A stretch of DNA of 64,000 bases from Aliihoeflea sp. 40Bstr573 (GTDB taxonomy: Bacteria > Pseudomonadota > Alphaproteobacteria > Rhizobiales > Rhizobiaceae). Below the pieces are notes generated by a model. That model was not told the origin of the DNA. It searched no databases and was given only the letters and a program-made list of their open reading frames with translations. The position numbers and the translations under genes were made by a program. Within the stretch, counting starts at the first letter, position 1; the number at the start of each line of letters is the position of its first letter. The DNA lies in NCBI RefSeq assembly GCF_024105655.1, contig NZ_JAAAMH010000008.1, positions 62,001 to 126,000 on the forward strand. The letters run 5' to 3'. This document shows positions 23,564-34,877 of the stretch, piece by piece.

Positions 23564-25422
23564 TCGGCTGCGATGTCCTTTTCGCTTTCCGCCTCGTCTG
23601 GCAGAAGAAATCCGCCCGACTGCCGGTTCCACAGATGGGCATAAAGGCCGCCGCTTGCGATCAATTCCTCGTGGCGGCCGTCCTCGACGACATGGCCCTT
23701 GTCCATCACGATCAGCCGGTCCATCGCCGCGATGGTCGACAGCCGGTGCGCGATGGCGATGACCGTCTTGCCTTCCATAAGGCGGTAGAGGTTCTCCTGG
23801 ATCGCCGCCTCGACTTCCGAATCGAGCGCCGAAGTCGCCTCGTCGAGGATCAGGATCGGCGCGTCCTTGAGCATGACGCGCGCGATCGCGATGCGCTGGC
23901 GCTGCCCGCCGGACAGCTTCACGCCGCGCTCGCCGACATGGGCGTCGAAGCCCTTGCGCCCTTCCGGATCGGAGAGACCGGCGATGAAGTCCAGCGCCTC
24001 CGCCCGCCGCGCCGCCTCGATCATCATCTCCTCGGTCGCGTCGGGGCGGCCGTAGAGGATGTTGTCGCGCACGGAGCGATGGAGAAGCGAGGTGTCCTGC
24101 GTGACGACGCCGATATGCGCGCGCAGGCTCTCTTGCGTGACGTCGGCGATGTTCTGCCCGTCGATCATCAGTCGCCCGCCCTCGATGTCGTAGAAGCGCA
24201 GCAGGAGATTGACGAGCGTCGACTTGCCCGCGCCGGAGCGCCCGACGACGCCGACCTTCTCGCCGGGCCGGATGGCGAGGTCGAGCTTTTCGAGAACGCC
24301 TTTCTGCTTGCCATAATGGAAGCGGACATCGTCGAAGACGATCTCACCGCGCGGCACGACAAGTGCCTTGGCATCGGGCTTGTCGTCGACGATGCGCGGC
24401 AGGGAGATCGAGGCGATGCCGTCCTGCACGGTGCCGACATTCTCGAACAGCGCCGAGAGCTCCCACATGATCCATTGCGACATGCCCCAAAGCCGCAGGA
24501 CGAGGCCGAGCGCGACCGCGATCGCGCCGACCGAGACCGCATCGAGCTGCCACAGCCAGATGCCGAGCGCCGCGACGAAGAAAAGGCACAGCGAGTTGAG
24601 CACGTAGAGCAGGCCGTAAAGGCCCGTGACCAGACGCATCTGCCGGTAGACCGTGTCGAGGAAGGTGCGCATCCCGTCACGCGCGAAGGAGGCCTCGCGC
24701 TGGGCGTGGCTGAAGAGCTTCACGGTCTGGATGTTGGTGTAGCTGTCGACGACGCGGCCCGTCATCACGGAGCGCGCGTCCGCCTGTTCTTCCGAGACGC
24801 GGCCAAGCCGCGGCACGAAATAGAACATCAGGCCGACATAGGCGATGACCCAGCCGGCAAGCGGCAGCGCAAGCCGCCAGTCGGCCGAGGCGACGATGAA
24901 CAGCATGCCGAGGAAATAGACGACGACGTAGTTCAGCACGTCGAACGTCTTGATCACCGTCTCGCGCACGGCGAGCGCCGTCTGCATCAGCTTTGTGGCG
25001 ATGCGGCCGGCGAACTCGTCCTGGTAGAAGGTCATCGACTGCTTGAGCAGGTAGCGATGGACCTGCCAGCGGATGCGCATCGGGTAATTTCCGAACAGCG
25101 TCTGCTGCTGCAAAAGCGAATGCAGCATGACCATGCCCGGCAACCCGACGAGGACGAGCAACGCCATCCCGGCGAGCTGCCAGCCATTGTCAGCAAGAAA
25201 GGTCTCGCGATCCTGCGCGCTCAGCCAATCGACGATGTTGCCGAGGAAGGAGAACATCCACACCTCGGTGATCGCGATCGCCGCGATCAGGATCGCCGCC
25301 GGGATCAGGTATGGCCAGGCGTCCTTCGTGTAGTGCAGGCAAAACGCGAAGAGCGTCTTCGGCGGCTCGACCGGCTCTTCGGCCGGAAACGGGTCAAGAC
25401 GGGATTCAAACCAGCGGAACAT
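23560..25422 (-). CDS. ABC exporter, fused permease-ATPase (first of a pair)
   Basis: A 620-residue half-transporter: exporter membrane domain (about 35-330), then an ATPase with Walker A GRSGAGKST, signature LSGGQRQRIAI and Walker B ILILDEATSALDSE. The catalytic Glu after Walker B is present here and in its partner, so neither site looks degenerate. It is first in a three-gene set (this gene, the second exporter, the 102-residue protein) joined by a 4-bp overlap and a 4-bp gap. The promoter should lie in 25423-25956. The substrate is not evident. Confidence 0.9.
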   Translation of the reverse strand: MFRWFESRLDPFPAEEPVEPPKTLFAFCLHYTKDAWPYLIPAAILIAAIAITEVWMFSFLGNIVDWLSAQDRETFLADNGWQLAGMALLVLVGLPGMVMLHSLLQQQTLFGNYPMRIRWQVHRYLLKQSMTFYQDEFAGRIATKLMQTALAVRETVIKTFDVLNYVVVYFLGMLFIVASADWRLALPLAGWVIAYVGLMFYFVPRLGRVSEEQADARSVMTGRVVDSYTNIQTVKLFSHAQREASFARDGMRTFLDTVYRQMRLVTGLYGLLYVLNSLCLFFVAALGIWLWQLDAVSVGAIAVALGLVLRLWGMSQWIMWELSALFENVGTVQDGIASISLPRIVDDKPDAKALVVPRGEIVFDDVRFHYGKQKGVLEKLDLAIRPGEKVGVVGRSGAGKSTLVNLLLRFYDIEGGRLMIDGQNIADVTQESLRAHIGVVTQDTSLLHRSVRDNILYGRPDATEEMMIEAARRAEALDFIAGLSDPEGRKGFDAHVGERGVKLSGGQRQRIAIARVMLKDAPILILDEATSALDSEVEAAIQENLYRLMEGKTVIAIAHRLSTIAAMDRLIVMDKGHVVEDGRHEELIASGGLYAHLWNRQSGGFLLPDEAESEKDIAAE

Positions 25423-25443
25423 CGGGTCGGGTCTTTCAGGTTC

Positions 25444-25695
25444 TTAGAGGCGCTCGAGGCACAAGCGCAGATGCTGCGCGCCGACGGCGGGATGGATCGG
25501 GTCGAGAACGGCGTCGCAAAGCGACGACCTTTGTTCCGCGACCCTCATGTAGGGCGGCGCGGCCGGGCTTCCCATGCCGATGCCCGCACCTCCTGCCACG
25601 ACGATGGCAAGAAGCCCCGCGACGGTCAGTCCGCCGGCTAGGTCTCGGAGATCGGTCAGGCGCCGGACAGGGCGCAAATCGGGCTGGGGAAACAT
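25444..25695 (-). CDS. Possible small membrane protein, weakly supported
   Basis: An 83-codon frame lying within the 534-bp gap between the exporter pair and trmL. It begins MFPQPDLRPVRRLTDLRDLA and has one hydrophobic Gly/Ala-rich segment (about 23-42), with a basic N-terminal side that would favour Nin-Cout insertion. It ends 21 bp before the exporter start on the same strand, consistent with a leader gene of that operon. I recognise no family, and the C-terminal half looks like random high-GC coding. It may be spurious. Confidence 0.3.
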   Translation of the reverse strand: MFPQPDLRPVRRLTDLRDLAGGLTVAGLLAIVVAGGAGIGMGSPAAPPYMRVAEQRSSLCDAVLDPIHPAVGAQHLRLCLERL

Positions 25696-25872
25696 CGTCG
25701 AAATCTCAAAGGTCCGGTCGTCTTGCCGGCGGATTTCGAAAGCGGATGCTTCAGTGCGTCAGGGAAGCGTCGATCCGAAAACCGCAGGCGCGAAAAAAGC
25801 GCGGCGCGCGCGAATGCGGGATGGGAAGAATATGTTCATCGCGGGCCTCCTGTGGTTCGGGTGGAACGAGGC

Positions 25873-25890
25873 TGTTTCATATCCGAAACA
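25873..25890. promoter_or_regulatory. Palindromic operator candidate TGTTTC-N6-GAAACA
   Basis: A perfect 6+6 inverted repeat with a 6-base AT-rich centre, lying 67 bp before trmL. Symmetry and spacing fit a dimeric regulator such as a TetR or LacI type. It could serve trmL or the leftward exporter operon. I cannot name the regulator. Confidence 0.35.
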
Positions 25891-25956
25891 TGCCGGTTTG
25901 ACCACCCGCCCCCATTGGCGCTAGGGCGGGCTCTCGATTGCACCAAGGGAAAGACC

Positions 25957-26409
25957 ATGCGCATCGCGCTCTACCAGCCCGACATCGCCGGCAATACGGG
26001 AACGATCCTGCGCCTCGCCGCCTGCCTCGGGCTTGAGGTCCACATCGTCGAACCGGCCGGTTTCGACCTGTCGGACCGCAACCTGAAGCGCGCGGGCATG
26101 GACTATCTGGAAATGGCCGCGCTCACGCGCCATGTCAACTGGGCGGCCTTCCAGATGTGGCGGGAGAGCAAAGGCGCACGGCTCGTTCTTCTCAGTACCC
26201 GGGCCGAAACCCCCTATACCGATTTCACCTACGCGCCGGACGACGTGCTCCTCTTCGGCCGCGAATCCGCCGGCGTCCCCGACGCCATCCACGCCGCCGC
26301 CCAGCACCGCCTCACCATCCCCATGCGACCTGGCGCGCGCAGCCTGAATTTGGCAATGAGCGTCGCCATGGTCGCCGGCGAGGCAGTTCGGCAAGCTCGG
26401 ACGGGTTGA
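25957..26409 (+). CDS. trmL: tRNA (cytidine/uridine-34-2'-O)-methyltransferase TrmL
   Basis: A 150-residue SPOUT (alpha/beta knot) methyltransferase that 2'-O-methylates the wobble base of tRNA-Leu isoacceptors using SAM. Knot motifs: QPDIAGNTGTILRLAACLG (about 8-26), FGRESAGVP (about 100-108) and IPMRPGARSLNLAMSVAMVA (about 121-140). The ATG at 25957, near AAGGGA at 25945-25950, starts the conserved MRIALYQPDIAGN; the frame stays open upstream without similarity. Length is typical. It is monocistronic and followed by repeat copy B. Confidence 0.93.
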   Translation: MRIALYQPDIAGNTGTILRLAACLGLEVHIVEPAGFDLSDRNLKRAGMDYLEMAALTRHVNWAAFQMWRESKGARLVLLSTRAETPYTDFTYAPDDVLLFGRESAGVPDAIHAAAQHRLTIPMRPGARSLNLAMSVAMVAGEAVRQARTG

Positions 26410-26439
26410 GCCTGGCGGCGGCCGGCCGGATAGTGAAGA

Positions 26440-26581
26440 CCCCCACCCCTTACCCCTCCCCACAAGGAGGAGGGGGTCGCCGGCGTTGCGCACGTTCCTA
26501 CAACGAAACGCCATGTGGAAGACCGATATGCCACGTTGATGCCCTCCCTCCCCCTTGTGGGGAGGGGTAAGGGGTGGGGGT
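26440..26581. repeat. Dispersed palindromic repeat, copy B
   Basis: A repeat with outer arms CCCCACCCCTTACCCCTCCC and GGGAGGGGTAAGGGGTGGGG, which are perfectly inverted, each joined to a CCACAAGG-type hairpin. The core (about 26476-26541) contains CGGCGTTGCGCACGTT and matches the core of copy C read on the opposite strand at roughly 80 percent by eye. It lies just 3' of the DUF559 gene (minus strand). Confidence 0.8.
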
Positions 26582-26613
26582 GGGGCGCAGACGTTGCGAG
26601 CAGAAGTACGCCC

Positions 26614-27012
26614 TTACGCAACCCCGATCTCCCTCAAGATCGTCTCGATGCAGCCGTCGAAATTGTCGCCGAGTTCGCCGGTGTTGATTCGAAGCACTCG
26701 ATAGCCATCCATCGCCAGCCGCTCGTCCCGAAAACGATCGCGGGTCTGCCGATCAGGAAATTGATGATGCTCGCCATCGAGTTCGATCACCAAGTTCTTC
26801 TCATGGATGACGAAATCGACGACATATGGCCCGATTGGCGCCTGTCGCCTGACATGCACGCCATACCAGGTCCGAAACATTTTCAGTTCCGCCCACAGCC
26901 GACGCTCGCCGTCCGTCATGGTGCGATGGAGTTTTCGCGCCCGCGAAATGGAACTTGGGTCGATGGCGCTCGGCATATCGGCTTGCCCCGAGGTAGGCAT
27001 CAACGTCCGCAT
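26614..27012 (-). CDS. DUF559 domain protein (restriction-like PD-(D/E)xK fold)
   Basis: A 132-residue DUF559 protein. The family is related to very-short-patch-repair and other restriction-like endonucleases. Visible are RKLHRTMTDGERRLWAELK (about 26-44), PYVVDFVIHEKNLVIELDGE (about 62-81, with Asp and ExDG as candidate metal ligands), then QTRDRFRDERLAMDGYRVLR (about 88-107), ending in an amphipathic helix. The start may be the ATG at 27012 or at 26976; the latter gives a start closer to the conserved part. The gene is bracketed by inverted copies B and C of a 140-bp repeat, suggesting it moves or is copied as a unit. The cellular role of DUF559 proteins is not established. Confidence 0.85.
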   Translation of the reverse strand: MRTLMPTSGQADMPSAIDPSSISRARKLHRTMTDGERRLWAELKMFRTWYGVHVRRQAPIGPYVVDFVIHEKNLVIELDGEHHQFPDRQTRDRFRDERLAMDGYRVLRINTGELGDNFDGCIETILREIGVA

Positions 27013-27049
27013 TTATTGTCAAAGTTGCAAGAAGTTCTAACGAAGGGGA

Positions 27050-27188
27050 CCCCCACCCTTACCCTCCCCACAAGGGGGAGGGAGGGCGTCCACGTCGCAT
27101 ATTCGTCGTCCGCGTGGCGCTTCGTTGAAAAACGTGCGCAACGCTGGCGCCCCCCTCCTCCTTGTGGGGAGGGCTAAGGGGTGGGGGT
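27050..27188. repeat. Dispersed palindromic repeat, copy C
   Basis: The same element as copy B but in opposite orientation, with outer arms CCCCACCCTTACCCTCCCCA and CCTCCTTGTGGGGAGGGCTA. The core (about 27088-27150) aligns end to end with the core of copy B when reverse-complemented. It lies 5' of the DUF559 gene, so B and C form a widely spaced inverted pair around it. Confidence 0.8.
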
Positions 27189-27247
27189 ACACCGTCGCAG
27201 GAAAAAGCCCGAGCCACGTCACGGATGCGCACGGCGGACAGGCTCCC

Positions 27248-27526
27248 CTACCCCCCACTGATCGCCGTCAGCACGAACACTTCGTCCCCATCCGCAAGCC
27301 TGTGCCCAAGCTTCACCCTCTCCCCATCCACGAACACATTGATATGCCTGCGAATGGCCGGCCGAGAATCGCACAGCCGGTCGCGCATCCCCGGCCATAG
27401 CGCCTCCAGCCCGTCGACCATCTCGGCAACCGTTCCCGCCTTCATCTCGACCCGCCGCCCCGCCCCCGGAAACAGGTCGACGAGGATCGCCGGAAGCCGG
27501 ACGATGATGTCGGGCCGCTCAGTCAT
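27248..27526 (-). CDS. MoaD/ThiS-like ubiquitin-fold protein
   Basis: A 92-residue beta-grasp protein ending in the diglycine ISGG needed for adenylation and thiocarboxylate formation in MoaD/ThiS sulfur carriers. Visible features are IIVRLPAILVDLFPGAGRRV (about 7-26), HINVFVDGERVKLGHRLADG (about 61-80) and DEVFVLTAISGG at the end. No moaE, moeB, thiF or thiG lies nearby, so it is probably not the main molybdopterin subunit. It overlaps the Asp-box beta-propeller gene by 8 bp; I recall this pairing in other bacteria, which suggests a shared, undefined function. Confidence 0.85.
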   Translation of the reverse strand: MTERPDIIVRLPAILVDLFPGAGRRVEMKAGTVAEMVDGLEALWPGMRDRLCDSRPAIRRHINVFVDGERVKLGHRLADGDEVFVLTAISGG

Positions 27527-28601
27527 GAACCGTCAGCGTCTCGACCGACAGGATCGCCGGCATGTGCGCCTCGATTTCGCGCCATGTCTCGCCCTCGTCA
27601 TTCGAGGCGAAGAGCGCGCCGCCGCTGGTGCCGAAATAGACGCCGGCCTTGTCCATCCGGTCGGTCGCCATTGCCTGGCGCAGCACGCCGAAATAGGCGT
27701 TTTCCTGCGGCAGGCCGTTGCGCAGATCCTGCCAGGTACGGCCCGCATCGCGCGTGCGCCAGACCGCGGCTTTGGCGTCCGGCATGTAGCGGCCCTTGGT
27801 GTCGCCGTTGAGCGGCAGCAGGAAGAGCGTGTCGCGGTCCTTCGGGTGCGCGGCGGCGGGGAAGCCGAAGCTCGAGGGCAGGCCTTGCTCGATGCTCTCC
27901 CATTTCACGCCGCCATCGTCGGTGCGGTACATGCCGCAATGGTTCTGCTGGTAGAGCCGCCCGTTCGCGCCCGCCGCCATGACGACATTGTGCACGCACT
28001 GACCGAATTCGGGATAGTTCTCGCCCTCGGGCAGGAAGTCGGCGCGCGTGCCGCGGTTGCGCGGCTCCCAGGTCTCGCCGCCATCGGCGGTGTGGAAGAC
28101 GCCGGCCGCCGAGATGCCGACCCAGATCTTGTCGTCGTCGGCGGGGTCGATCACCAGCGAATGCAGGATCAGCCCTGCCCCGCCGGGGTTCCAGTGCGGC
28201 CGCGTCGGGTGCTTTTGCAGCCCCTCGACATGGCTCCATGTCTCGCCGTCGTCGTCGGAACGGAACAGCCCGGCCGGCTGGACGCCGGCATAGACGCTGC
28301 CATTATGCGCCGCCACGCTCCAGACCGATGAGATGGGCTCCTGCCCTTCGCCATAGGCAAGGCCGTTCGAGGAATGCGTCCATGTCCGGCCGAGATCGGT
28401 CGACTTCCAGACCGCCGGGCCAAACCACGCATCGCCGCCGCCGGCATAGAGCGTGCCGGTTTGCGGATGGGCGACGAAATGGTTGATCGGCCAGGTCTGG
28501 CAGAACGGGCCGGAGAGTTTCCAGTCGCGCCGCGCACCGTCGCTTTCCAGGATAAAGGCACCCTTCCTGGTGCCGACCAGTACCAGAACCTTGTCTGCCA
28601 T
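27519..28601 (-). CDS. Asp-box (BNR) beta-propeller protein, exo-alpha-sialidase-like
   Basis: A 360-residue protein of the sialidase/WD40/YVTN-like superfamily. Six Asp-box repeats (S/TxDxGxTW) are visible: STDLGRTW, SDDDGETW, TADGGETW, TDDGGVKW, TRDAGRTW and SNDEGETW. They mark a six- or seven-bladed propeller. The sialidase Arg triad is not obvious, so sialidase activity is doubtful. There is no signal peptide, so it should be cytoplasmic. The ATG at 28601 is preferred because GGAGG precedes it by about 5 bases; the upstream ATG at 28613 overlaps that site. Cotranscribed with the MoaD-like gene downstream. Confidence 0.85.
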   Translation of the reverse strand: MADKVLVLVGTRKGAFILESDGARRDWKLSGPFCQTWPINHFVAHPQTGTLYAGGGDAWFGPAVWKSTDLGRTWTHSSNGLAYGEGQEPISSVWSVAAHNGSVYAGVQPAGLFRSDDDGETWSHVEGLQKHPTRPHWNPGGAGLILHSLVIDPADDDKIWVGISAAGVFHTADGGETWEPRNRGTRADFLPEGENYPEFGQCVHNVVMAAGANGRLYQQNHCGMYRTDDGGVKWESIEQGLPSSFGFPAAAHPKDRDTLFLLPLNGDTKGRYMPDAKAAVWRTRDAGRTWQDLRNGLPQENAYFGVLRQAMATDRMDKAGVYFGTSGGALFASNDEGETWREIEAHMPAILSVETLTVHD

Positions 28602-28706
28602 CAGATCCTCCATTTTCCCGGCCGGGGAACATTACTCCTTTTGCAATGACGGTTGAACGACCCGCGGACCGACACCGCCCTGCGCAATTTTTTGAAAGCG
28701 TTGCGG

Positions 28707-28735
28707 CTTGTCACGCAATCATCGCTCGGCTATCT
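28707..28735 (+). promoter_or_regulatory. Promoter of the leuL-leuA leader transcript
   Basis: CTTGTC at 28707-28712 and CTATCT at 28730-28735, separated by 17 bp, resemble alphaproteobacterial sigma-70 -35 and -10 boxes. The leader ATG is at 28744, only 8 bases after the -10, so transcription should begin at or 1-3 bases before the start codon, giving a leaderless or nearly leaderless mRNA. Confidence 0.6.
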
Positions 28736-28743
28736 CTTCGACC

Positions 28744-28854
28744 ATGAATTCGTCGCGCGCCTCGTTCCCGATCTTCCCGGCCATCGTCGCCGTCGATCGC
28801 GCGCGCCTTGCCTCGCTTCTTCTCCTTCTTAGCGGCGATCGTCGGGTTGGCTGA
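28744..28854 (+). CDS. leuL: Leucine leader peptide (attenuator control of leuA)
   Basis: A 36-codon frame from ATG 28744 to TGA 28852-28854. Near its end it runs CTT CTT CTC CTT CTT, five consecutive Leu codons, after another Leu (RLASLLLLLSG). It sits 116 bp upstream of leuA on the same strand. A Leu run just ahead of competing hairpins is the classical layout of a leucine attenuator: when Leu-tRNA is scarce the ribosome stalls in the run and changes the downstream fold. It has no clear Shine-Dalgarno site, consistent with initiation at or near the 5' end of the transcript. Confidence 0.75.
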   Translation: MNSSRASFPIFPAIVAVDRARLASLLLLLSGDRRVG

Positions 28855-28899
28855 AGGAGCGCCCGGCGGTCGAAGTGCCGCCGAGGCCGAAAGCTCCTT
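28854..28899 (+). promoter_or_regulatory. Hairpin region directly after the leuL stop
   Basis: An outer stem AAGGAGC (28854-28860) with GCTCCTT (28893-28899) encloses an inner stem GGCGG (28865-28869) with CCGCC (28878-28882). The outer 5' arm abuts the leuL stop codon, so a ribosome finishing or stalled in the leader would affect which stem forms. No clear U-run follows, so it is probably not itself an intrinsic terminator. Confidence 0.5.
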
Positions 28900-28928
28900 G
28901 TCCCGACACCATTCCCACAGCTAGAAGT

Positions 28929-28958
28929 GCCCGCCGCAATACCTGATCGCGGCCGGGC
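28929..28958 (+). promoter_or_regulatory. Hairpin abutting the leuA ribosome binding site
   Basis: GCCCGCCGC (28929-28937) pairs with GCGG-c-CGGGC (28949-28958), nine base pairs with one bulged C. The leuA Shine-Dalgarno GAGGAG (28959-28964) begins right after the stem. It could control leuA by restricting translation initiation rather than, or in addition to, transcription termination. Confidence 0.45.
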
Positions 28959-28970
28959 GAGGAGACGAAG

Positions 28971-30683
28971 ATGAACGAGCAATCGAAGATCGTTGCGCCG
29001 AGCGCAAAGGGCATGCCCGACGCCGCCCGCAAATATCAGCCCTACCCGTCCGTGGATCTGAAGGACCGCACCTGGCCTTCGAAGCGGATCGAGAAAGCGC
29101 CGATCTGGTGCTCCGTCGACCTGCGCGACGGCAATCAGGCGCTGATCGATCCGATGGGCCATGACCGCAAGGCGCGCATGTTCCAGTTGCTGCTCGACAT
29201 GGGCTTCAAAGAGATCGAGATCGGCTTTCCCTCGGCCTCGCAGACCGATTTCGACTTCACCCGCTTTGCCATCGAAGAAGCGGGCGTGCCCGACGACGTG
29301 TCCTTGCAGGTGCTGGTCCAGTGCAGGCCCGAACTCATTGCCCGCACTTTCGAAGCGCTCGAGGGCGCGCGGCACCCGATCGTCCACTTCTACAACTCCA
29401 CCAGCGAGTTGCAGCGCCGTGTCGTGTTCGAAAAGGACGTCGCCGGCATCAAGGCCATCGCCACGGACGCGGCCAAGATGGTGGTCGACATGGCGGCGAA
29501 GACCGGCGGCGGCTACCGTTTCCAGTATTCGCCCGAAAGCTTCACCGGCACCGAGCTGGAAGTGGCGCTGGAAATCTGCAATGCGGTCACCGAGATCGTG
29601 AACCCGACGCCCGACAACAAGCTGATCCTCAATCTGCCGGCAACCGTCGAGATGTCGACGCCCAACATCCATGCCGACCAGATCGAATGGATGAGCCGCC
29701 AGCTCGACCGGCGCGATTCGATCATCCTGTCGCTGCATCCCCACAACGACCGCGGCACCGGCATCGCCGCGACCGAACTCGGCCTGATGGCGGGCGCCGA
29801 CCGCGTCGAGGGCACCTTGTTCGGCAATGGCGAGCGCACGGGCAATGTCGATCTGGTGACGCTGGCGCTCAACATGTACACGCAGGGCGTGGACCCGATG
29901 CTGGACTGCACGCAGATCGAGCGCATGAAGGACGTCTACGAATATTCCAACCAGCTGAAGATTCCAGAGCGCCACCCTTACGTCGGCGAACTGGTCTACA
30001 CCGCCTTCTCCGGCTCGCATCAGGACGCGATCAACAAGGGCATGAAGGCGATCAGGAAGGCCAACAAGCCGCTGTGGGAGGTGCCTTACCTGCCGATCGA
30101 CCCGCAGGACGTGGGACGCTCCTACGAGGCGATCATCCGCATCAACTCGCAATCGGGCAAGGGTGGGATCGCCTACATCCTGCAGGCCGATTACGGCCTG
30201 AACCTGCCGCGCAATTTGCAGGTCGAGTTCCGCGAGGACATCCAGGAGATCACCGACCGGGAGGGCAAGGAACTGCGCCCCAAGGCGATCTACGACCGCT
30301 TCCTCGACCTTTATGTGGACCAGCCGGACGGCCGCCTCAAATTCGTCGACCACCAGACATTTCCCGACACCAGCGTGAAGGGCCGCCGCGTGGTCGAGGC
30401 GACGATCATCGACAATGGCAAGGAGCTGCAGATCACCGGCACCGGCACCGGCCCGGTCGACGGATTCGTGGACGCGCTGTCGAAGCATGTCGGCGTCGAC
30501 CTGACGGTCCTCGACTATTCGGAGCATTCCATGCAGCGCGGCTCGAACGCGGCCGCCATCTGCTACATGGAGGTCGAGCATCCGGGCGGGAAGCTTTTTG
30601 GCGCGGGCATCAACACCAATATCGTCGCGGCCTCGCTCGAAGCGGTCGTCTCGGCGGCCAACCGCATTCTCGGTGCCAGATGA
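28971..30683 (+). CDS. leuA: 2-isopropylmalate synthase
   Basis: A 570-residue enzyme condensing acetyl-CoA with 2-ketoisovalerate, the first committed step of leucine synthesis. It has the long LeuA type 2 form: start MNEQSKIVAPSAKGMPD, the active-site entry IWCSVDLRDGNQALIDPM (about 44-61, with the RDGNQ motif), the second HMGL-like signature LSLHPHNDRGTGIAATELG (about 252-270, HxH metal ligands) and a C-terminal regulatory domain (about 440-570) for leucine feedback. It is preceded by leuL and its hairpins, so both attenuation and allosteric control are likely. The next gene overlaps it by 4 bp. Confidence 0.96.
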   Translation: MNEQSKIVAPSAKGMPDAARKYQPYPSVDLKDRTWPSKRIEKAPIWCSVDLRDGNQALIDPMGHDRKARMFQLLLDMGFKEIEIGFPSASQTDFDFTRFAIEEAGVPDDVSLQVLVQCRPELIARTFEALEGARHPIVHFYNSTSELQRRVVFEKDVAGIKAIATDAAKMVVDMAAKTGGGYRFQYSPESFTGTELEVALEICNAVTEIVNPTPDNKLILNLPATVEMSTPNIHADQIEWMSRQLDRRDSIILSLHPHNDRGTGIAATELGLMAGADRVEGTLFGNGERTGNVDLVTLALNMYTQGVDPMLDCTQIERMKDVYEYSNQLKIPERHPYVGELVYTAFSGSHQDAINKGMKAIRKANKPLWEVPYLPIDPQDVGRSYEAIIRINSQSGKGGIAYILQADYGLNLPRNLQVEFREDIQEITDREGKELRPKAIYDRFLDLYVDQPDGRLKFVDHQTFPDTSVKGRRVVEATIIDNGKELQITGTGTGPVDGFVDALSKHVGVDLTVLDYSEHSMQRGSNAAAICYMEVEHPGGKLFGAGINTNIVAASLEAVVSAANRILGAR

Positions 30684-31450
30684 GCGACCGCCTCGGCGCA
30701 CGCGTGATGGGGAACGGCGGCCACACGGTCGTCCTTCTCCACGGTTTCGGCGGCTCGCATTCGACCTGGACGGACATCCAGCCGGCGCTCGCGCGCGATG
30801 CCACCGTCATCGCCTACGACCTTCCCGGCCATGGCCGCTCTCTCGACTATCCGGGCGCGGGTCCTGCGACGGTGGCGGCCAAGGCCGTCGCCGCCGACCT
30901 GACGGCGCGCGGGCGCGAGCGGGTGCATCTCGTCGGCCACTCGATGGGCGGCGCGGTCGCCACGCTGATCGCGATGCGCTCGCCCGAGCGCGTGGCGTCG
31001 CTGACGCTCCTGGCGCCCGGCGGCTTCGGGCCGCAGATCAACGGCGAGCTCCTGAAGCGCTACGCCAACGCGCGCGATGCCGGCGCGCTGGGGCAGATCA
31101 TGGACGAAATGTCCGCGCCGGGCTTCTCAACGCCGCCGAAATACGTCCTCGGCCTTGCCGCCGTGCGCGGGGTGCCGGGCCAGCGCGACAGGCTCGACAC
31201 CTTCCATGGCGTCATCCAGAAGGATGGCGTGCAAGGTGAAATCCCGCGCGAGGCGCTGGGCAAGCTTGCGCTACCAGTCAACCTCGTCTGGGGCACCGCC
31301 GATCCGGTCCTGCCCTTTTCCCAGACCGGGAACCTGCCGGACAACATCCGCCTCACCGCCATCGACGGTGCCGGCCACATGCTGACGGTGGAGGCCAAAT
31401 CCGCTGTCCTCGCGGCGATCCGCGCCTCGCTTGCCGCCGGAAGCCCTTGA
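30680..31450 (+). CDS. Alpha/beta hydrolase, coupled to leuA
   Basis: A 256-residue cytoplasmic alpha/beta hydrolase. Motifs: HGFGGSHSTW (about 21-30, oxyanion HG), the nucleophile elbow GHSMGG (about 91-96), an acid in WGTADPVLPF (about 204-213) and the catalytic His in DGAGHML (about 230-236). The ATG at 30680 overlaps the leuA stop as ATGA, so translation is probably coupled; the frame stays open far upstream in the shadow of leuA. Such a thioesterase- or lactonase-like enzyme may simply share the transcript. No direct role in leucine synthesis is known to me. Confidence 0.87.
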   Translation: MSDRLGARVMGNGGHTVVLLHGFGGSHSTWTDIQPALARDATVIAYDLPGHGRSLDYPGAGPATVAAKAVAADLTARGRERVHLVGHSMGGAVATLIAMRSPERVASLTLLAPGGFGPQINGELLKRYANARDAGALGQIMDEMSAPGFSTPPKYVLGLAAVRGVPGQRDRLDTFHGVIQKDGVQGEIPREALGKLALPVNLVWGTADPVLPFSQTGNLPDNIRLTAIDGAGHMLTVEAKSAVLAAIRASLAAGSP

Positions 31451-31525
31451 CTTTTGGCCCGTTTTCGCCGGAATCGGGATTTAACGAAGCGTTAACCGTA
31501 CCCCCCGAGTCCCCGGAGCGCCGGC

Positions 31526-32104
31526 ATGAACGAAGCTTTGGAAGAAACGCCCGCCAAGGGCGAATTGCGTCGCCTCGCCGCCGCGATCCGCGAGGTGAAG
31601 ACCAACAATGCCGACCGCACCGACGTCGTCGTCGACCTGCGAGAGGCCCAGCAGACACGACTCGAAATCCTCGCGCAGGACCTGGAACAGGTCTTCGCAG
31701 ACATCCCCTCCGACGACGAGCGCTTCGATTTGAACGTCACCGGCGGGCTCCAGCCGCGCCTGTGGATCGACGCGGTCAGCCACGTCACGATGGGCCGCGA
31801 CAAGCGCACCTACCGCTTCCTGAAGGACACGCGCAACGGTCGCATCGTGCTTGCCGAGACGCCCGACATCCGCAAGGCTGCTGACGCGGTGACGCTCTAT
31901 GTCGCCGAGCGCATGGTCGAGCGCGAAGCGGTGCTGGCCGGCGACCGCGAACCGCCCGCCCCCGTCCTCGGCGTACTCGACCGCGAACCGGCCAAGGCCG
32001 CCTTCGACGTCTTCACCTCGCTCGCGCTGTTCCTCGCCGGTGCCTTCGTCGGCGTCGCCGCGGTGCTCTATTTCGCCTGGGACCGGCTGGCGATCAGCTT
32101 CTGA
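31526..32104 (+). CDS. Conserved hypothetical protein with C-terminal membrane anchor
   Basis: A 192-residue protein. A polar N-terminal domain (about 1-150) includes LRRLAAAIREVKTNNADRTD and an LQPRLWIDAVSHVTMGRDKR stretch (about 75-94). A single C-terminal hydrophobic helix (about 166-188) is positioned like a tail anchor, with nearly the whole domain in the cytoplasm. No enzymatic motif is recognised. It follows the hydrolase by 75 bp and overlaps the convergent metallophosphoesterase gene by 37 bp at its 3' end. Similar proteins are common in rhizobia (recollection); function unknown. Confidence 0.75.
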   Translation: MNEALEETPAKGELRRLAAAIREVKTNNADRTDVVVDLREAQQTRLEILAQDLEQVFADIPSDDERFDLNVTGGLQPRLWIDAVSHVTMGRDKRTYRFLKDTRNGRIVLAETPDIRKAADAVTLYVAERMVEREAVLAGDREPPAPVLGVLDREPAKAAFDVFTSLALFLAGAFVGVAAVLYFAWDRLAISF

Positions 32105-33021
32105 CCGGCATCTTCCGTCGGCAAGAGCGTCTGCGCGACGATCTCGCGCACGCCTTCATGGCCGTACATCAGGCCGCGCCGCTGGACGCGCACCCCCCAT
32201 CCAGCCTCCGGCCCGCCGTCGATCTCGATGAGATTGTATTGAGCGGCCGGCTTCGATCCGCCGATCGCCTGCCCCGCCGCGGCGACGCCCAGCACCGGCA
32301 CGCGCCCGTCCCGCCCCTCGAGCCAGTAGAGGCTCGGCAGGTGCGTGTGGCCGTGGAGAACCAGTTCGGCGCCGTGGCGCAGCATCACCTTCTTGAACCG
32401 GCCGATGCCGTAGAGCCGCTTGTGCTGGGGCGCCGCGCCGCGCACCGGCGGGTGGTGGATAAGGATCACCCGGCAAAGGCCCTTCGTCTTCGCCTCGTCG
32501 AGCATCCGGCCGAGCCGGCGAGCCTGCGTGGAGCCGAAATAGCCCGACGCCATGAAGGGCGCGGTCGCGCGCGCAGAAGAGACGCCGATGATGGCCATGT
32601 CTCCGCGCACGCGCATGAAGGGAAACGCGCCGCGATGGGCGGGCTGCGCCCTGCCGTCGCCCCACATCCACCGGCCCCAGGCCTTGCAGGCTTTGTCGAG
32701 CGCGCCCGGCACATAGGCGTCATGATTGCCCGGAACGACCGACACGTCGTCGCCATCGCCGACCGTCTCGAGCCACTGGCGCGCGACCTCGACCTCGGCA
32801 TCGAGCGCGAGGTTGACCAGATCGCCGGTGACCGCGATATGGTCAGGCGCGCGCGCCTTCATGTCGTCGAGCAGCATCCCGATCACCTGGTCGTGGAGAT
32901 TGGCTTTCCGGTTGCGCTGCCAGTTGATGTAGCCCGTGATCCGCTTCGAGGCGAGTTCACGATAGGACATGTCGGGAAGGGGGCCGAGGTGGACGTCCGA
33001 GAGATGAGCGAGCCTGAGCAT
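32068..33021 (-). CDS. Calcineurin-like metallophosphoesterase
   Basis: A 317-residue phosphoesterase with the full metal-binding set: LSDVHLG (about 6-12), GDLVN (about 64-68), GNHDAY (about 93-98), a His in LIHHPPV (about 187-193) and GHTHLP (about 224-229). It binds two metals and cleaves a phosphodiester or phosphomonoester; the substrate (cAMP, lipid or nucleotide) is open. The ATG at 33021 gives the compact start MLRLAHLSDVHLG; the longer upstream frame has no similarity. Divergent from the Nudix gene, with 50 bp between the starts. Confidence 0.9.
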   Translation of the reverse strand: MLRLAHLSDVHLGPLPDMSYRELASKRITGYINWQRNRKANLHDQVIGMLLDDMKARAPDHIAVTGDLVNLALDAEVEVARQWLETVGDGDDVSVVPGNHDAYVPGALDKACKAWGRWMWGDGRAQPAHRGAFPFMRVRGDMAIIGVSSARATAPFMASGYFGSTQARRLGRMLDEAKTKGLCRVILIHHPPVRGAAPQHKRLYGIGRFKKVMLRHGAELVLHGHTHLPSLYWLEGRDGRVPVLGVAAAGQAIGGSKPAAQYNLIEIDGGPEAGWGVRVQRRGLMYGHEGVREIVAQTLLPTEDAGQKLIASRSQAK

Positions 33022-33071
33022 ACCCTTCCTTACGATATGAAATTCCAGGTGACCACCCCGGGAGAAGCGCG

Positions 33072-33563
33072 GTGAACGAGACCTCCCGCTCAATGCCGAC
33101 ACGGCTGCAATGGTTGCGCATCAAGCTCTTCCACGGCTGGTTTCTCCTGCGCCGCCCGATGACGCTGGGCGTGCGCGGCATCGTCCACGACGCAAGGGCC
33201 GGCACGGTCTTCCTGATCCGCCACACCTATATCGGTGGCTGGCAATTGCCAGGCGGCGGCGTGGAAGTGGGAGAGACGATGCGGCTCTCGCTCGAGCGCG
33301 AGCTTGCCGAAGAAGGCAATATCGAGTTCACGGCCGAGCCGCGCCTCGTCTCGATCCACCTGAACCGGCAGGCGAGCCCGCGCGATCATGTCGCGCTCTA
33401 TCTCATCACCGAATATCGCCAGACGACGCCGAAGCTGCCCGACCACGAGATCTCCGAGGCCGGTTTCTTCCCGCTCGACGCCCTGCCCGAGGCGACCACG
33501 CCGGCGACCCGACGCCGGCTTGCCGAAGTGTTCGGCGACGCGGTGCTGGAGCATCACTGGTAG
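33072..33563 (+). CDS. Nudix hydrolase
   Basis: A 163-residue Nudix protein. The Nudix box is near residues 59-80: GGGVEVGETMRLSLERELAEEGN. In the consensus the end reads REUxEExGU, whereas here it is RELAEEGNI, so the conserved Gly is replaced by Asn and the Gly is shifted by one. The metal-binding Glu residues are kept, so it is probably active on a nucleoside diphosphate derivative. The start is a GTG at 33072 with GGAGA 6 bases upstream; the ATG at 33093 is an alternative. It ends just ahead of a convergent small gene. Confidence 0.87.
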   Translation: MNETSRSMPTRLQWLRIKLFHGWFLLRRPMTLGVRGIVHDARAGTVFLIRHTYIGGWQLPGGGVEVGETMRLSLERELAEEGNIEFTAEPRLVSIHLNRQASPRDHVALYLITEYRQTTPKLPDHEISEAGFFPLDALPEATTPATRRRLAEVFGDAVLEHHW

Positions 33564-33587
33564 CGCCGAAGGTGCGTGGAATGCGCC

Positions 33588-33845
33588 CTAATCTGCGGTC
33601 GGCAGCCGCCGGATGGTGAATTCGATGATGTCGTCGGGGCGCTCGGCCCAGCTTTCGATCTCGGTCCAGTAGGCCTGTTTCGGCCAGCGGTCGAACCACT
33701 CCTGCGCCTTCACGCGCGCGTCCAGGCGCGGCAGGCGAAACGTCTCGCGCACGAAACCGTCGCGCGGATGGGGGCTACCTTCTGCGCGATGCTTTTCGAG
33801 GCTGCGCCTCAAACCCTCCAGCGGTGGTCTGGCCGGCACCCGCAC
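33588..33845 (-). CDS. Small conserved hypothetical protein
   Basis: An 85-residue protein, rich in Arg and Trp, with the conserved-looking core RETFRLPRLDARVKAQEWFD (about 34-53) and the C-terminal EFTIRRLPTAD. The start is taken as the GTG at 33845 because AAGGAG lies 7 bases upstream of it; the frame also opens at a TTG (33866) with no site. It is convergent with the Nudix gene and divergent from hemF. No signal peptide or membrane helix. I believe rhizobial relatives exist but know no function. Confidence 0.6.
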   Translation of the reverse strand: MRVPARPPLEGLRRSLEKHRAEGSPHPRDGFVRETFRLPRLDARVKAQEWFDRWPKQAYWTEIESWAERPDDIIEFTIRRLPTAD

Positions 33846-33962
33846 GAAAGAACTCCTTGACCCCAACGTCCAACAGATTAGGGATCAGGGCGTCAAATTA
33901 CGAGTCAAATGTTGAACGCGTGCCGGCGCTCGCCGAATGCGCGCCTCCCCACGGAGCCATGA

Positions 33963-34877
33963 ATGGAACGTCCCGACATCCCGGCCGGCCTGCCCGACGA
34001 CATCGAGGCGAAGAAGGCGACCGCGAAGGCCTGGTTCGAGGAACTGCGGGGCAAGATCTGCGCCGCCTTCGAGGCGATCGAGGACGATCTGTCGGGACCG
34101 CACGCCTCCTGGGCGCCGGGCCGGTTCGAGCGCACCGAATGGCTGCGCGATGAGGGCCGTGGCGGCGGCGGCATCATGTCGATGATGCGCGGCCGTGTCT
34201 TCGAAAAGGTGGGCGTGCACACCTCGACCGTGCATGGCGAGTTCTCGCCCGAGTTCCGCAAGCAGATCCCCGGCGCCGACGAGGACCCGCGCTTTTGGGC
34301 GAGCGGCATCTCGCTCATCGCCCACCCGCACAATCCCAACGTTCCCGCCGTCCATATGAACACGCGCATGGTGGTGACCACGCGTCAGTGGTTCGGCGGC
34401 GGCGCCGATCTGACTCCGGTGCTGGACCGGCGCCGTGCGCAGGACGACCCCGATACGGTGGCCTTCCACAAGGCGATGAAATTCGTATGCGACAAGCACA
34501 AGGCCGTCGCCGACTACGACCGCCTGAAGGCCTGGTGCGATGAATATTTCTACCTTCCCCACCGCGACGAGGCGCGCGGCGTCGGCGGCATCTTCTACGA
34601 CTGGCTGAAGACGCCGGAGGACCAGGGCGGCTGGAACGCCGATCTGCGCTTTTCCCAAGATGTCGGCCGCGCCTTCCTCGTGGTCTACAACCACCTCGTG
34701 CGCAAGAACTTCAACGACAACTGGACCGACGCCGACCGCGAGGAACAGCTGATCCGCCGCGGCCGCTACGTCGAGTTCAACCTCCTCTACGACCGCGGCA
34801 CGATCTTCGGGCTCAAGACCGGCGGCAACGTGGATTCGATCCTCTCGTCCATGCCGCCCGAGGTGAAGTGGCCGTAG
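33963..34877 (+). CDS. hemF: Oxygen-dependent coproporphyrinogen III oxidase
   Basis: A 304-residue cytoplasmic enzyme of heme synthesis converting coproporphyrinogen III to protoporphyrinogen IX with O2. The family is very well conserved. Visible blocks are [20 protein letters not shown] (about 122-141), [10 protein letters not shown] (about 141-150), the [20 protein letters not shown] segment (about 193-212) and [20 protein letters not shown] (about 260-279). Length matches. The gene is alone; an oxygen-independent hemN/hemZ is not in the window. It is followed by repeat copy D. Confidence 0.96.

Follow-up and report, generated by a model that had tools for sequence, protein, structure and literature searches.

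A conserved leucine leader peptide with competing RNA helices precedes leuA in Rhizobiaceae and may control the start of leuA translation

Leader-peptide control of amino-acid genes is textbook knowledge, and a short frame rich in leucine codons upstream of leuA raises the question of whether leucine sets the expression of this gene and, if so, at which step. We analysed a window of 64,000 nucleotides from Aliihoeflea sp. 40Bstr573 (contig NZ_JAAAMH010000008.1), in which the leuA product scores 862.8 bits against PRK03739.1 (cut-off 455) and 764.2 bits against TIGR00970 (cut-off 697.4). A sequence-only reading of this DNA had claimed a frame of 36 codons with five Leu codons before leuA. The frame is present, with the consecutive codons CTT CTT CTC CTT CTT at 28816-28830 and 116 bp between its stop and the leuA start at 28971 (Table 1). 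On the minus strand a frame of 660 residues (28719-30701) runs antisense to the whole of the leader and leuA, and is probably a shadow frame of the GC-rich sequence. From the comparisons that follow we consider that the element upstream of leuA is very probably a leucine-responsive leader-peptide switch of some kind.

Table 1 Features of the leuA upstream region in the window, and loci with two leaders in distant relatives
Feature	Position	Strand	Basis
-35-like box CTTGTC, 37 nt before leader ATG	28707-28712	+	spacing in relatives
-10-like box GCTATC	28729-28734	+	TA at -13/-12 invariant in relatives
Leader peptide gene, 36 codons, MNSSRASFPIFPAIVAVDRARLASLLLLLSGDRRVG	28744-28854	+	ATG 28744, TGA 28852-28854
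Segment 2 (CGATCGTCGGG), last leader codons, partner of segment 3	28836-28846	+	11 pairs, covariation
AGGAGC right after leader stop, partner of GCUCCU	28855-28860	+	6 pairs, covariation
Segment 3 (CCCGGCGGTCG), common to helix 2:3 and inner hairpin	28862-28872	+	alignment, permutation, folding
Segment 4 (CCGCCG), inner hairpin partner of 28864-28869	28878-28883	+	permutation P 0.002
GCUCCUU, anti-Shine-Dalgarno-like, partner of AGGAGC	28893-28899	+	covariation, masking test, folding
Hairpin directly 5' of leuA Shine-Dalgarno site	28929-28958	+	folding and permutation
leuA Shine-Dalgarno site GAGGAG	28959-28964	+	sequence; 6 bases before ATG 28971
leuA, 2-isopropylmalate synthase, long form	28971-30683	+	NCBIfam PRK03739.1 and TIGR00970 above cut-off
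Loci with two serial leucine leaders upstream of leuA	L119, L121, L123, L126, L128, L144, L150, L152, L153, L157, L184		

For comparison we took the best 30 of the 59 matching genomes of the window's family and the best 80 of 588 named records. These 110 loci gave 105 distinct upstream regions, which are biased to close relatives because they come from the best-scoring loci; five shared a core, so that 100 sequences entered the alignment. Seven of the 105 had no usable leuA start for permutation tests, and from the remaining 98 we kept 44 representatives. A script chose some of the leuA starts by their Shine-Dalgarno-like motifs, and these may be misplaced; the permutations remove phylogeny and base composition only partly. 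All 105 regions hold a Leu-rich leader, and in 103, all but L009 and L026, the leader closes with R-[VA]-x-stop. Leucine stands at codons -13, -12, -11, -10 and -8 in 86, 100, 103, 104 and 105 of the 105 leaders. The third base of these codons varies at -13 to -11, is nearly fixed at -10 and is fixed at -8, where every leader has CTT. Of the Leu codons in the leader tails 59% are CTT, compared with 10% in seven long frames of the window. The leader tails argue that the frame is translated and senses leucine, and that the RNA is under some additional constraint; because codons -10 and -8 are nearly fixed at the third base, such a constraint may explain part of the conservation.

Upstream of the leader, a box of the form [ACGT]TTG starts 36-38 nt before the ATG in 104 of the 105 relatives and at exactly 37 nt in 80, counted with a script that could choose among in-frame ATGs; all of these 80 leaders have TA at -13/-12 from the ATG. 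A sigma-70 consensus scan of 28600-29000 did not report the -10-like box GCTATC. The sole sigma-70-like site of that scan lies at 28714-28687 on the minus strand, pointing away from leuA and toward a minus-strand gene at 27519-28613. The trpL gene in the window also has a box (CTTGCC) 37 nt before its ATG, as counted by hand, and the excerpted text of two papers on S. meliloti (PMC7298713, PMC10117765) has trpL RNA beginning with its ATG. Since the promoter-like box keeps a near-fixed spacing, as for trpL, the leuA leader mRNA is probably leaderless or nearly so; the promoter-like spacing alone predicts a transcript start near 28742.

Within the RNA, the sequence-only reading had proposed an outer/inner hairpin at 28854-28899 and a third stem ending at the leuA Shine-Dalgarno site, and both are borne out. 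The former folds at -27.8 kcal/mol, better than any of 200 shuffles (z -4.57). The latter, with arms 28929-28937 and 28949-28958 folded in 28925-28964, reaches -17.7 kcal/mol (z -2.00, 5/200 shuffles as good), and its arms are conserved, with 0 of 2000 permutations as good among the 44 representatives. An alternative helix between segments 2 and 3 (28836-28846/28862-28872; helix 2:3) is predicted at -23.6 kcal/mol (z -4.33). Because helix 2:3 excludes the inner hairpin, such mutually exclusive folds would make the element a switch. The longer stretches 28810-28899 (z -0.71, 54/200 as good) and 28864-28970 (z -1.43, 17/200) are unremarkable against shuffles. Helix 2:3 alone is predicted to be more stable than the 3:4 pairing plus the outer stem in 38 of the 44 representatives, with the window among the six exceptions.

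Both helix 2:3 and the pairing of AGGAGC with GCUCCU are kept by compensatory change. In the 100 aligned sequences the 11 pairs of helix 2:3 are paired in 99.8% of cells, three of them having changed on both sides, and the six pairs of AGGAGC/GCUCCU in 100% of counted cells, with two changed on both sides and the first pair left uncounted in 15 rows because of gaps. When the partners were slid by 1-3 columns only 32-59% remained paired, and none of 500 shuffles reached the observed pairing of either helix. A second alignment of 51 distinct rows gave 99.8% and 99.7%, respectively, and RNAalifold recovers helix 2:3 unaided. With partners permuted among the 44 representatives, helix 2:3 beat all 2000 permutations, and the AGGAGC/GCUCC and segment 3:4 pairings gave P values of 0.0015 and 0.002. 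Helix 2:3 and AGGAGC/GCUCCU cross, so that a pseudoknot is possible; both are conserved, though not necessarily formed together. AGGAGC and segment 3 are separated by 1 nt in 100/100 rows, and the other loops measure 7-12 and 13-25 nt in the representatives, lengths that would suit an H-type pseudoknot. The sequence-only reading had named a lack of conserved Leu run or stems in close relatives as what would refute it; the comparison finds both conserved and does not refute it. That reading was right about the Leu leader and about stems, which proved to covary; it missed helix 2:3, the promoter-like spacing and the dual pairing of GCUCCUU, which can pair with AGGAGC or with the leuA Shine-Dalgarno site.

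So conserved an RNA could bind a protein or a small molecule, the leader frame being incidental. The core has 22 invariant columns among the 100 sequences, as in riboswitches, the last Leu codon is invariant at its third base, and a protein has been proposed for the actinobacterial LEU element in the available passages of PMC1262725. We nevertheless regard RNA-ligand binding as very unlikely, given that Leu is kept at codons -13 to -11 despite third-base changes and that the stop codon, the Leu run and the spacing of promoter-like box to ATG are all kept. Rfam, where Leu_leader is a leader family, speaks against a ligand too, its covariance models giving 0 matches over the 64 kb at gathering threshold and 0 at E up to 10 in 28650-29050.

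A covariance model of the element, R1, matched 188 of 199 genomes of the window's family, once in 185 and twice in three (G023, G025 and G617); the sequences behind R1 are from the family, and some lie inside the genomes on which it was run, while the large searches used stricter filters. Eight of the 11 genomes that it missed are 1.0-2.0 Mb in size. In the 40 genomes listed for both R1 and LeuA, compared by hand, the R1 match always lies 63-146 nt before the LeuA match. Across the order R1 matched 3 of 101 genomes, all three belonging to the window's family. LeuA matched at 1e-100 in eight of the 101, five of them from outside the family and three from within, a result suggesting that this form of leuA is missing from much of the order. 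Mechanical ORFs are many here (109 in 24000-34000), and the leader might be a chance reading frame in a GC-rich upstream region; the conservation refutes this and leaves it practically no probability, with a leader in every one of the 105 relatives, R1 matches in nearly all family genomes and the compensatory changes described above. Comparison of sequences thus shows the leader with its Leu run, the two helices, the hairpin 5' of the Shine-Dalgarno site and the spacing of the promoter-like box. With its run of Leu codons and with exclusive helices that reach into the last leader codons, the element looks like a ribosome-dependent leader-peptide regulator.

At which step would such a regulator act? 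The element does not have the GC hairpin and U-run of a classical attenuator of the leuL/trpL type. The lack of a clear U-run terminator, remarked on in the sequence-only reading, is confirmed by a scan that reports no terminator-like site in 28600-29000 of the window. A separate scan for a hairpin with a T-rich tract finds one in 10 of the 105 leuA leaders and none in the other 95, and a further scan finds 12. The scan that gave 10 also matches its controls, the leaders of trpL and ilvI in this genome, both with hairpins and T-rich tracts. The trpL leader peptide, MNAHSHTNKWWWAR, lies before trpE at 54159-54115 on the minus strand of the window and is followed by hairpins and T-rich tracts. 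Upstream of ilvI (L113, G000:C22), the leader frame MLKTTLILVVGRRVGKVV is followed by a GC hairpin and TTTTTT, and is likely a classical attenuator.

Transcription of leuA could instead be attenuated in the classical way, by a terminator that is poor or is aided by a factor, although we hold this rather improbable. Helix 2:3 would then be the antiterminator and the hairpin 28854-28899 the terminator: a ribosome stalled by leucine starvation would allow helix 2:3, whereas a fast ribosome would cover segment 2 and the hairpin would form, a hairpin that pausing or Rho would help because it is without a U-run. The order and overlap of the segments are those of trp-type attenuators, the 3:4 pairing is conserved (P 0.002), the polarity works without a pseudoknot, and ten leaders do carry the T-rich tract. 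Yet terminator-like sites are missing from 28600-29000 and T-rich tracts from the other 95 leaders, although trpL and ilvI of the same genome have such tracts, and the conserved sequence GCUCCUU goes unexplained beyond its pairing. The leader could also be coupled to Rho or mRNA decay, the untranslated stretch being attacked after leader termination and protected by stalled ribosomes or structures. The 116 untranslated nucleotides before leuA, which hold no intrinsic terminator, would fit such coupling, but precise competing helices would not need to be conserved for it, and we judge it improbable. Leucine control of leuA is more likely to act at translation start than through an intrinsic terminator.

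The full mechanism that we propose, to which we give an even chance, combines a leader ribosome that senses leucine, a pseudoknot and control at the leuA translation start. When leucyl-tRNA is scarce, the ribosome would stall in the Leu run and leave segment 2 free to pair with segment 3. AGGAGC could then capture GCUCCUU, forming a pseudoknot with helix 2:3, and the leuA Shine-Dalgarno site would be open and leuA translated. With plentiful leucine, the ribosome would reach the leader stop and cover segment 2 together with AGGAGC; GCUCCUU would be free to pair with the leuA Shine-Dalgarno site and lower leuA translation. We infer that the ribosome stalls, that the pseudoknot is a real fold and that the output lies at translation start. 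Were there no pseudoknot, GCUCCUU would also be free during starvation when helix 2:3 forms, and control would run in the wrong direction. In the relatives compared, the first base of AGGAGC ranges from the last base of the stop codon to 4 nt past it. This is inside the footprint of a ribosome, which extends about 12 nt downstream of the codon being read, a figure taken from an excerpt of PMC4833913.

Folding predictions bear on the last step. Folding 28864-28970 of the window alone, which mimics a ribosome at the leader stop, predicts a pairing of GCUCCUU with the leuA Shine-Dalgarno site. With a ribosome placed at the stop, masking GCUCCUU raised the predicted accessibility of the Shine-Dalgarno site from 0.36 to 0.49 over the 44 representatives (Wilcoxon 3e-6; 17 up and one down by more than 0.1, 26 within 0.1), in a test that was designed after seeing the fold program, which cannot treat pseudoknots, leave AGGAGC in a loop, and that should be weighed accordingly. 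GCUCCUU was the best of the masked segments tried in 14/44, and its predicted pairing with the Shine-Dalgarno site exceeded 0.25 in only 19/44. An earlier unmasked comparison of 102 of the 105 loci gave a weak shift, with mean accessibilities of 0.39 for a stalled ribosome, 0.34 for one at the stop and 0.22 when the entire tail of the leader is free; 34 loci rose by more than 0.1 and 16 fell. The masking result favours output at translation start in some of the family and tells us little about the others. Control of translation initiation, as the sequence-only reading had suggested, is thus favoured by the absence of T-rich tracts in most leaders and by the masking shift, but not by coevolution of GCUCCUU with the Shine-Dalgarno region, which was not significant by permutation among the 44 representatives (P 0.12). 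Pairings of this region with the Leu run (P 0.36, 44 representatives), segment 2 (P 0.30) and segment 3 (P 0.86) were rejected by permutation. In Ensifer-like lineages the leuA Shine-Dalgarno site is weak (-2.9 kcal/mol in L023 and L107), which weighs against the proposed mechanism.

The element shares features with several described systems, compared here through the excerpted text of the papers cited. Like enteric leuL, it places a leader with Leu codons before leuA and has competing helices with the ribosome as the probable sensor; the attenuator of leuABCD works via a terminator structure (PMC6123439), in contrast to the window's leuA leader, which has no clear terminator. The actinobacterial LEU element likewise combines a Leu leader before leuA with a possible pseudoknot and no obvious terminator, and with a stem that takes in the leuA Shine-Dalgarno site, as one is predicted to do here, a likeness judged from the published description. 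Its authors favour a bound protein (PMC1262725), and work cited there found that codon mutations in the actinobacterial leuA leader deviated from the predictions of classical attenuation. The base stem of the LEU element is formed by the Leu run, whereas the same pairing in our set is no better than permuted (P 0.36).

Among rhizobia the studied case of a leader peptide, in the portions of the literature at hand, is trpL. The trpL/rnTrpL leader mRNA of Sinorhizobium meliloti is leaderless (PMC7298713, PMC10117765), as we predict for leuA, and trpL and the leuA leader of the window have the same 37-nt spacing of box to ATG; unlike the leuA leader, the window's trpL has hairpins with T-rich tracts and senses another amino acid. 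In Caulobacter, ilvL before ilvIH is a further alphaproteobacterial leader peptide for branched-chain amino acids, described in the excerpt as transcription attenuation (PMC4117421), and the ilvI leader of our genome has its GC hairpin and TTTTTT. Elsewhere, leuA1 is mentioned in PMC8829014, and the passages available mention an alphaproteobacterial ilvB leader (PMC1273637) and SEP5 as a possible Thr/Lys leader (PMC10117765), the last paper stating that its supplements hold translated 5'-UTR frames of S. meliloti. We found no account of a rhizobial or alphaproteobacterial leuA leader in the portions of the literature searched, which did not cover Vitreschak et al. 2004 (FEMS Microbiol Lett 234:357), where any earlier prediction would most likely stand; nor did we find expression data under leucine starvation, in a search of which little was aimed at rhizobial leuA.

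To look beyond the family we picked by hand, from a larger set of matching genomes in other families and orders, about one locus of long-form leuA per genus; this gave 74 upstream regions (L116-L189), two of them short. When a leader and a helix were both required, 33 of the 74 held at least one such unit and seven held two, compared with 15 and 0 of 222 shuffled and 3 and 0 of 74 antisense controls; shuffles in these scans keep base composition only. By peptide pattern alone, tails of type I (L-x-L...P) occur in 38/74 and of type II (LRLIGG-like) in 34/74, with type I upstream of type II in 14/74, although the patterns overlap and some of these are one leader counted twice (controls for type I, type II and both: 25, 17 and 1 of 370 shuffled; 3, 1 and 0 of 74 antisense). 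With position limits, which had no separate control, 11/74 hold both types in series (Table 1). A helix like 2:3 scores at least 20 in 27 of 40 type II matches, compared with 27% of shuffles, and its sequence differs from that of the window, as in L123, where GGTCCGCGGGC pairs with GCCCGTGGACC. The window leader resembles type II in tail and place, and one reading is that they are homologous. The idea that type I leaders are transcription attenuators was dropped: a hairpin with a T-run occurs in 6/22 type I and 2/20 type II leaders, where shuffles give means of 2.4 and 1.4. Three regions from other families of the order with long-form leuA (L116, L117 and L118) have a different leader tail, LLLSRP or LLLSCP, with the leader stop codon inside a pairing CCCCTGA/TCAGGGG (TCGGGGG in L118).

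It is conceivable, although short of probable, that Alphaproteobacteria with long-form leuA share an old leucine system of up to two serial leaders, of which the window's family keeps the proximal one in leaderless form with an anti-Shine-Dalgarno and pseudoknot switch. In such a system the terminating ribosome would hide AGGAGC and the anti-Shine-Dalgarno sequence would close leuA, to be reopened by the pseudoknot under starvation. If our proposed mechanism is true, an element that is found in 188 of 199 family genomes, and that has neither an Rfam match nor a clear terminator, would show how a leucine attenuator can act at translation start. If the wider view holds as well, most genomes of a large family would carry a translational leucine attenuator with a conserved pseudoknot that has no Rfam match, and the serial leader pairs in 11 of the 74 more distant regions would offer natural variants for studying change in such switches.
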